Below, piece by piece: positions 4,394 through 26,746 of a DNA stretch of 34,590 bases. The stretch is from Synechococcus sp. (GTDB lineage Bacteria > Cyanobacteriota > Cyanobacteriia > PCC-6307 > Cyanobiaceae). Location: assembly GCA_012270465.1 (NCBI GenBank), contig JAAXIH010000019.1, positions 1 to 34,590 of the forward strand. Reading direction: 5' to 3'. A model generated the notes under the pieces. The model did not search any database and was not told where the DNA came from. It worked only from the letters and a program-made list of their open reading frames with translations. The stretch's first letter is position 1. The number at the start of each line of letters is the position of its first letter. The translations under genes and the position numbers were made by a program.

Positions 4394-6306
4394 CCCGCCG
4401 AACGGCGGCGGCGGCGGCGACGGCCCTCTCCTTCGGATTCAGCCTCCGGCTCTGGCTCTGGGCTGGCCTCGGCTTCCGGTGCAGCAACAGGCTCGGCGGG
4501 CTCGCTCTGCGGGGTGCTGACGACGAGCGGTGCAATCTCCACCAAGGCAGGCTCAGCTGAGGCCGATTCCGGATCGGGCAGTGGTGTGATCTCCACCGGG
4601 ATCGATCCGCTCGCCTCTTCTGCAGCAGCCACTGGGCCATTGCCACTGCCGCGGCCACCGCGGCGGCGGCGGCGACCACCACTAGCTGCCAGCTCTTGCT
4701 TAGCGGCTTCCATCACCGCATCGGCGTCATCGCCAGGACGCACAACCCGGGAGACCACGTTGTCGAGATCTTCCGGTGCGGGATCAGCCAGCAACGCTGG
4801 ATTAAGGCCCAGCCAACCGAACACCAGTTCTTGGTCAGCATCCATCGGCACAGCCACCACCTGGGGGTCTTGGCGGCGCGGTTCAGCGCCGGCCTGAGCG
4901 CCCGAACCACCGAGTTCCTGATCGGAATCCACCTGATCCACAGGCTCGGTGGCAGCGCGTCCACCACCGCGGCGGCGGCGGCGGCCGCCGCCACCATCGC
5001 CATTGCTGGGGCTAGACACCTCAGCTCGCGCTGAAGCAGCAGAACGCACCAAGCCAGGCAACGACGCCAGGGGCTGCAAGGTGTCTTTCCCAGGCAGGGT
5101 CACCACATGACCCAAGCCTCCGCAGCTGGGGCAGGCACGGCCAAACAGCTCATAGATGTTTTGCCCCTGACGCTTGCGGGTGAGCTCCACCAAGCCCAAT
5201 TCGGTGATCTGGGCGATCTGCGGCCGGGCCTGGTCATCCCGCATGGCCTGGGTGAAATGCTCCAGCAACATCAGCTGGTCGCGGCGCGACTCCATATCGA
5301 TGAAGTCGATGATCACCACGCCGCCGATGTTGCGCAGCTTCAGCTGACGAGCAATCTCGGTAGCGGCTTCACAGTTGGTCCACAGCACCGTCTCGCGGGC
5401 GTTCGCCGAGCGGGTGAAGGAACCGGAGTTCACATCCACCACCGTGAGGGCCTCGGTGGGCTCGATGATCACGTAGCCGCCGGAGGGCAGATCCACCCGG
5501 GGCTTGAGGGCATCACGGATAGCCGCGTTGACCTTGTAGTGCTCAAGGATTTCGCTGGCATCCTCGTGGTGCTCAACGATCAAGTTGGCTTGATCGGGGC
5601 CAAGGAAGCGATTGACGCGCGCCACCGCGTCCTCGGAATCCACCACAACCCGCAGCACATCGGTGCTGTAGAGATCACGCAGCACCCGATGAATGAAGTC
5701 TTCATCGCGGTTCAGCAGAACCGGCGGGTGGGCTGTTTCAGCCGCCTGTTGGATCGCTTCCCACTGGCGCAGCAGGGATTCGAGGTCATCAATGATCTGC
5801 TCTTCACTGACGCCATCGGCCTCAGTGCGCACCAGCAGGCCCGTGCCTGGGGGCTTGATCAGCACCGCCAGGGCACGCAGGCGGTTGCGCTCGGTTTCAC
5901 CGCCGATGCGCCGCGACACATTCACCCCCTGCCCATGGGGTTGCAGCACCAGGAAACGACCTGGCAGCGAGAGGTTGCCGGTGAGCCGCGGGCCCTTGGT
6001 GCCCGTGGGCTCCTTCATCACCTGAACCAGCACCTTCTGGCGCGGTTCCAGCAGCTCAGTGATCCCAGCGCCGCCTTTCTTCAGGCGCAACGGGCCGAGG
6101 TCGGTGATGTGAATGAAACCGTTTTTTTCGCTCTCGCCGATGTTGACGAAAGCGGCATCGATGCCGGGGAGGACGTTTTCAACGGTGCCCAGATACACAT
6201 CACCGATCTGGTGACGACCTTGCGCAACGATTAATTCATCAACCCGTTCGTCGTTGAGAACTGCGGCAATGCGCAGCTGCTCAGCGATGACGATCTGCTG
6301 TGGCAT
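4390..6306 (-). CDS. rne: Ribonuclease E/G with Arg/Gly-rich C-terminal region
   Basis: 638 aa; S1 domain [31 protein letters not shown]; catalytic DVNSGSF and [11 protein letters not shown]; Zn-link [16 protein letters not shown] blocks and a terminal [11 protein letters not shown]. Confidence 0.96.
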
Positions 6307-26409: not shown

Positions 26410-26514
26410 GGTGATGTTTCGGCGATTTTGCCCAATTTTTGCGTTATGTATCGCGCTGAACGACACGGGGTGATTGTCAGCCGATAAAACACGGGTGTAG
26501 CAACCGCTACAACA

Positions 26515-26575
26515 CGTTCACCTCGTTTCGGCGAGGCGCAGTTCGATCCAGGCCATGGAACGGGGACCTGGACTG
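26515..26575 (+). ncRNA. Putative glutamine-II (Downstream-peptide) riboswitch
   Basis: CGTTC(26515-26519)/GAACG(26558-26562) P1; CCTCG(26521-26525)/CGAGG(26532-26536) P2; CCAGG(26548-26552)/CCTGG(26667 offset: 26567-26571) pseudoknot-like pairing; directly upstream of a 33-aa ORF. Confidence 0.65.
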
Positions 26576-26592
26576 ACTCAGAGGAACCTCCC

Positions 26593-26694
26593 ATGACCCT
26601 GACCTACCGCGGCCAGCAGTACGTGCAGTCCAAGGCTGCCGTTGATCACCAGAAGCCTGCCCTGACCTACCGCGGCGTTGCTTACGCCAAGTGA
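26593..26694 (+). CDS. 33-aa DUF4278-type peptide with internal LTYRG repeat
   Basis: MTLTYRGQQYVQSKAAVDHQKPALTYRGVAYAK*; not in the ORF track; flanked by the structured leader and a terminator. Confidence 0.78.
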   Translation: MTLTYRGQQYVQSKAAVDHQKPALTYRGVAYAK

Positions 26695-26720
26695 TCAGGC
26701 CGTAAGGCTGAATCCCATCA

Positions 26721-26746
26721 GCCCCCGCTTCGGCGGGGGCTTTTTT
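26721..26746 (+). terminator. Rho-independent terminator
   Basis: gcccccgcttcggcgggggctttttt, perfect 8-bp stem with TTCG loop. Confidence 0.92.

Follow-up and report, generated by a model that had tools for sequence, protein, structure and literature searches.

A Glutamine-II riboswitch and a putative NtcA site ahead of a 33-aa YRG-repeat peptide gene in Synechococcus sp.

Analysis of the window, that is, the whole 34,590-nucleotide stretch of Synechococcus sp. DNA, revealed a Glutamine-II riboswitch, near certainly genuine, in the leader that precedes an ORF for a 33-aa peptide. There are good grounds for viewing the locus as a one-gene nitrogen-excess unit, in which an NtcA-type block of transcription and a glutamine ON switch together govern the production of a YRG-repeat peptide. 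A paper of 2010 described the Downstream-peptide motif, together with its link to the RNA Yfr6 and its short ORFs, which are 17-100 aa long (PMC2864571). According to a review, the type 2 glutamine riboswitches bind glutamine and activate expression, and in marine picocyanobacteria they lie upstream of DUF4278 genes (PMC6316151). A link between this riboswitch and DUF4278 mini-ORFs is already in the literature (PMC2864571, PMC6316151); an earlier note on this DNA had mentioned tiny ORFs behind Downstream-peptide RNAs. The locus is one more member of a described family.

Aptamer and encoded peptide

The earlier note had recognised a Glutamine-II (Downstream-peptide) riboswitch from the letters and named a covariance-model search as the check. 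This search (cmscan, Rfam) returned RF01704 Glutamine-II on the + strand with 73.7 bits and an E value of 3.3e-16, against a gathering score of 33 bits; the copy covers the model end to end (positions 1-60) and is the sole Rfam match at threshold in the whole window. The positions that had been given for CGTTC/GAACG, CCTCG/CGAGG, CCAGG/CCTGG, GAGGAA, the ATG and the stop codon are all correct (Table 1), but CGTTC/GAACG, which had been read as a simple enclosing helix, is a pseudoknot. The pairings of P1, P2 and the pseudoknot are all perfect, and the ORF starts 20 nt 3' of the aptamer end. The copy shares its P1/P2/pseudoknot organisation and its distance to the short ORF with the type 2 glutamine riboswitches of RF01704, with nothing significant differing, and as a member of this family it is likely to be a glutamine-binding ON switch.

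Table 1. Coordinates of the predicted elements of the riboswitch-peptide locus
Feature	Position	Strand	Remark
Upstream promoter motif GTATCGCGCTGAACGAC	26448..26464	+	centre ~42 bp 5' of inferred start
Candidate -10 element GATAAAAC	26483..26490	+	inferred from position
Inferred transcription start (G)	26497	+	ATG is nucleotide 97 from there
NtcA-type palindrome GTAGCAACCGCTAC (GTAN8TAC)	26497..26510	.	about +1 to +14, directly 5' of aptamer
Glutamine-II riboswitch aptamer (P1, P2, pseudoknot)	26512..26572	+	RF01704 full length
Pseudoknot 5' strand CGTTC	26515..26519	+	partner GAACG 26558-26562
P1 hairpin CCTCG 26521-26525 / CGAGG 26532-26536	26521..26536	+	
P2 CCAGG 26548-26552 / CCTGG 26567-26571	26548..26571	+	pseudoknot 3' strand in loop
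Ribosome-binding site GAGGAAC	26581..26587	+	complementary (2-nt bulge) to GTTCACCTC 26516-26524
33-aa DUF4278 / Yfr6-type peptide, two LTYRGxxY repeats	26593..26694	+	ORF and Pfam
Intrinsic terminator AGCCCCCGCTTCGGCGGGGGCT, then T run	26720..26741	+	9-bp GC-rich hairpin

The peptide, MTLTYRGQQYVQSKAAVDHQKPALTYRGVAYAK, contains both of the LTYRGxxY units that had been pointed out, and its assignment to the DUF4278 type is borne out by a match to positions 1-34 of the 57-position Pfam profile (PF14105; 33 bits, E 7.6e-08, curated cut-off 25.3). DUF4278 is the only match in Pfam and NCBIfam, libraries that may not hold an IF7 model. Among the 41 sequences of the 33-aa class, residues L3, Y5, R6, G7, Y10, L24, Y26, R27, G28 and Y31 are invariant, and pN/pS among the closer pairs is 0.44; the ORF is under purifying selection. 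An AlphaFold model of moderate confidence (pLDDT 70.8, pTM 0.33) predicts two beta hairpins, each carrying one YRG turn, with a short helix between them; no solved structure related by sequence was found. The gene has its own strong terminator, as had been claimed, located just beyond the range given in the earlier note.

In a sample of Cyanobiaceae, RF01704 was detected in 92 of 151 genomes, representing 41 of 59 genera, and in a sample of 195 genomes from the class as a whole, the 20 genomes with a match all belong to this family. The genome under study carries three copies, one of which is interrupted by a contig end. From 132 collected loci, 131 were analysed (111 nonredundant); 128 of these encode YRG-repeat mini-proteins and three encode other products. 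The two-repeat type of 33-35 aa accounts for 45 loci in 43 genomes, at least three YRG/YRR units are present at 60 loci, and the remaining YRG-type loci are variants. The number of repeats differs between paralogues while YRGxxY is kept. In a second architecture a helix-like N-terminal segment (MNxLxxxK...) precedes the YRG units (L002, L039, L046, L048, L139, L145 and L147), and at L003 this segment occurs alone. At L123 and L146 (genomes G067 and G056) the gene behind the riboswitch encodes a protein of 104-109 aa that lacks YRG repeats and seems to contain a transmembrane segment, possibly a different target gene of Glutamine-II. A further DUF4278 gene of the same genome as the window, with three repeats, is found on contig C93 (L159, 913-1125), and no Glutamine-II match was found in its leader.

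These comparisons bear on the possibility that the locus functions primarily as a regulatory or bifunctional RNA, with the peptide being secondary. Yfr6 was first described as a strongly structured 244-nt RNA overlapped by the antisense RNA Yfr14, and the authors considered a role in a toxin-antitoxin system (PMC1242208, PMC2518516); its mapping in 2005 noted a possible 33-aa ORF at nucleotide 97 and a lower RNA level upon nitrogen depletion (PMC1242208). The locus shares with Yfr6 of Prochlorococcus MED4 and SS120 the 33-aa ORF, a start codon at transcript nucleotide 97 (counted here from the inferred +1), a TATA-like element, a G start and the Downstream-peptide leader (PMC1242208, PMC2864571), although the genome is a different one. 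However, the RNA structure is accounted for by the aptamer, synonymous change is favoured in the ORF, and a variable number of repeats around a constant YRGxxY is what is expected of a protein module and not of a base-pairing RNA. It is therefore highly improbable that the locus is an RNA of this kind, which might form a toxin-antitoxin pair together with an antisense RNA.

Promoter region

The transcription start was placed at the G in Table 1 because the ATG then falls at the same nucleotide as in the mapped Yfr6 of Prochlorococcus MED4. It coincides with the first base of an NtcA-type palindrome, which, like the motif further upstream, had been overlooked in the earlier note. An exact GTAN8TAC is present upstream of 126 of the 131 loci (108 of the 111 nonredundant ones) compared with 2.1 in shuffled sequences, and nearly all of these sites are located 14-20 nt 5' of the aptamer; the invariance of GTA and TAC among the loci follows from their being the search pattern. 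A hexamer resembling TATAAT is present in 90 of the 126 loci, its end lying 6-7 bp 5' of the site; a consensus scan for a full sigma-70 promoter found none. At 74 of the 126 loci the upstream motif, with the asymmetric family consensus TGTATCN4TGAACNACA, is present 48-50 bp 5' of the NtcA-type site, and the copy in the window is the only exact match to this consensus in the 1.78-Mb genome. Some loci without the motif have a TTGxx element near -35 instead.

The same assembly contains 26 GTAN8TAC sites, compared with 289 for the reversed control pattern. By eye from the sequence, we take the genes adjoining several of these sites to be nirA, cynS, glnB and that of a nitrate-type transporter. Because this consensus adjoins such genes, the genomic set, in which the site of the window was compared with those of L157 and L162, looks like an NtcA regulon. 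A GTAGCN4GCTAC on contig C103, located inside a predicted coding frame, was taken as a chance occurrence. According to a review, the promoter of the DUF4278 gene PMM1846, which is under riboswitch control, also contains an NtcA motif (PMC6316151). Since the palindrome covers the positions from +1 to +14, a bound regulator should act as a repressor, and NtcA probably binds here and represses under nitrogen starvation.

Being situated at the inferred +1, GTAGC-N4-GCTAC could in principle form a 5' hairpin in the mRNA, with a 5-bp stem and a 4-nt loop, instead of serving as a DNA site. Pairing in RNA does not appear to be kept, since C-A mismatches at the fifth pair (11 loci) outnumber T-G wobbles (6 loci), and the hairpin was rejected on these counts; the occurrence of the same consensus at nitrogen-assimilation genes of this genome also argues against it. 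A hairpin in place of an NtcA site is thus considered improbable.

From the aptamer to the ribosome-binding site

The segment GTTCACCTC, which overlaps the pseudoknot 5' strand and the 5' strand of P1, is proposed as a candidate OFF-state partner of GAGGAAC. The best duplex of GUU(CA)CCUC with GAGGAAC in the window has a predicted energy of -8.9 kcal/mol, but in the nested minimum-energy fold of the window copy the start codon is masked by another helix, CCAUGG...GGGG (26553-26565) with CCUCCCAUG. In the two-repeat class the complementarity between the strand comprising the pseudoknot 5' and P1 5' parts and the ribosome-binding region exceeds that of shuffled sequences (z -4.7). Among the longer peptides, the GGACTC class shows such an excess over shuffles for the J strand GCAGUUCGA, which is complementary to UCGGACU (z -7.4). 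The P1 3', P2 5' and pseudoknot 3' strands have no comparable complementarity to the ribosome-binding region. When partners were permuted within classes, with kinship ignored, the observed mean was reached in 3 of 200 permutations for the two-repeat class and in 0 of 200 for the longer one; when all loci were permuted together, the preference of the pseudoknot/P1 strand for its cognate partner was weak (z -0.9 and z -1.8). The preference for cognate pairs is support for a masking model, not proof, and part of the complementarity may be merely Shine-Dalgarno pairing with CCUC.

The crystal structure of a ligand-bound aptamer revealed that the pseudoknot strand is engaged in the fold, and formation of the pseudoknot was proposed to free the ribosome-binding site (PMC6698751). 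That the aptamer strands are tied up in the ligand-bound state fits such a release upon glutamine binding, and the comparative data fit a translational ON switch whose OFF state is reached by a different sequence solution in each of the two classes. Control by transcription attenuation, to which the strong intrinsic terminator within the unit might point, is very improbable: this terminator lies 3' of the stop codon and thus outside the leader, no leader terminator was found on the + strand, only about 20 nt separate the aptamer from the start codon, and published work favours translational control (PMC6698751).

Phage copies and the possible role of the peptide

The riboswitch is also found directly before YRG mini-ORFs in the cultured Synechococcus phages S-CBS2 (L182, 2425-2483; 66 bits) and S-CBS4 (L181, 1430-1486; 44.9 bits). 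In PSS2, inspection by eye suggests what we take to be a degenerate copy, below threshold, before a homologous gene. Glutamine-II is present in 12 IMG/VR contigs, of which L165 and L168 resemble host islands and L167 is S-CBS2, and the combination with a YRG mini-ORF was found in L033, L034 (5656-5716), L163, L164, L166, L167 and L169-L172. In L034 the cassette lies downstream of a gene (4994-5338) that by eye is presumably plastocyanin-like. The search pattern GGNAACGGGGAC misses the core that occurs most often, CATGGAACGGGGAC, and drew unrelated bacteria; seven pattern matches on viral contigs were dropped, being without an RF01704 match. The phage YRG mini-proteins are related to PHROGs 545, 5049 and 6192; some combine one repeat with a charged helix, and the single-repeat peptide of L171 is just 20-25 aa long. 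The peptide and DNA of the window itself gave no phage match. Marine phages have been reported to carry glutamine riboswitches of the glnA type (PMC9004378), and an incomplete literature search gave no publication that describes the type 2 cassette in a phage.

The proposed sequence of events is as follows. Transcription would start at or near the inferred position, inside the NtcA-type palindrome, so that NtcA probably blocks it under nitrogen starvation. At low glutamine the pseudoknot would be weak, and the freed aptamer strands could pair with the ribosome-binding and start region; at high glutamine the pseudoknot would form, the ribosome-binding site would be released and the 33-aa peptide made. 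With both inputs in place, the peptide is likely to be made only when nitrogen is plentiful. By analogy with the DUF4278-containing IF17, the most likely role of the peptide is to reduce nitrogen assimilation by binding to a protein. The PF14105 match and control by a glutamine riboswitch are shared by the window peptide and DUF4278 proteins, among them IF17 (gifB) with its N-terminal part, but the 33 residues of the window peptide are too few for an IF17-like C-terminal part, and its leader is of type 2 and not of type 1 (glnA). IF17 reportedly inhibits glutamine synthetase without needing its DUF4278 part (PMC6316151), and homology does not therefore show that the peptide inhibits this enzyme. 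The unit is also reminiscent of another nitrogen-excess system, a small protein whose promoter carries NtcA sites and which is reported to be absent from marine picocyanobacteria (PMC8092223).

A more specific role, in which the peptide is the picocyanobacterial substitute for PirA or for IF7/IF17 and directly binds PII or glutamine synthetase, is conceivable but somewhat doubtful. IF17 is covered by DUF4278 in its N-terminal part, the DUF4278 protein PMM1846 has been proposed in a review to act like an IF (PMC6316151), and PirA and the IFs are reported to be absent from the picocyanobacterial clade (PMC8092223); on the other side, the profile libraries link the peptide to DUF4278 only, and no solved relative was found by sequence. 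More tentative still is the wider proposal that YRG mini-proteins form a doubly gated nitrogen-excess effector regulon, with two solutions for the OFF state, and that the cyanophage cassettes steer host nitrogen assimilation.

The instance in the window is by itself one further member of the family. The comparative results make testable how Glutamine-II reaches the ribosome-binding site, through two class-specific pairings, and whether YRG peptides may replace the glutamine-synthetase inactivating factors reportedly missing in picocyanobacteria. S-CBS2 and S-CBS4, cyanophages in culture whose hosts are known, provide a tractable system with their copies of the cassette.
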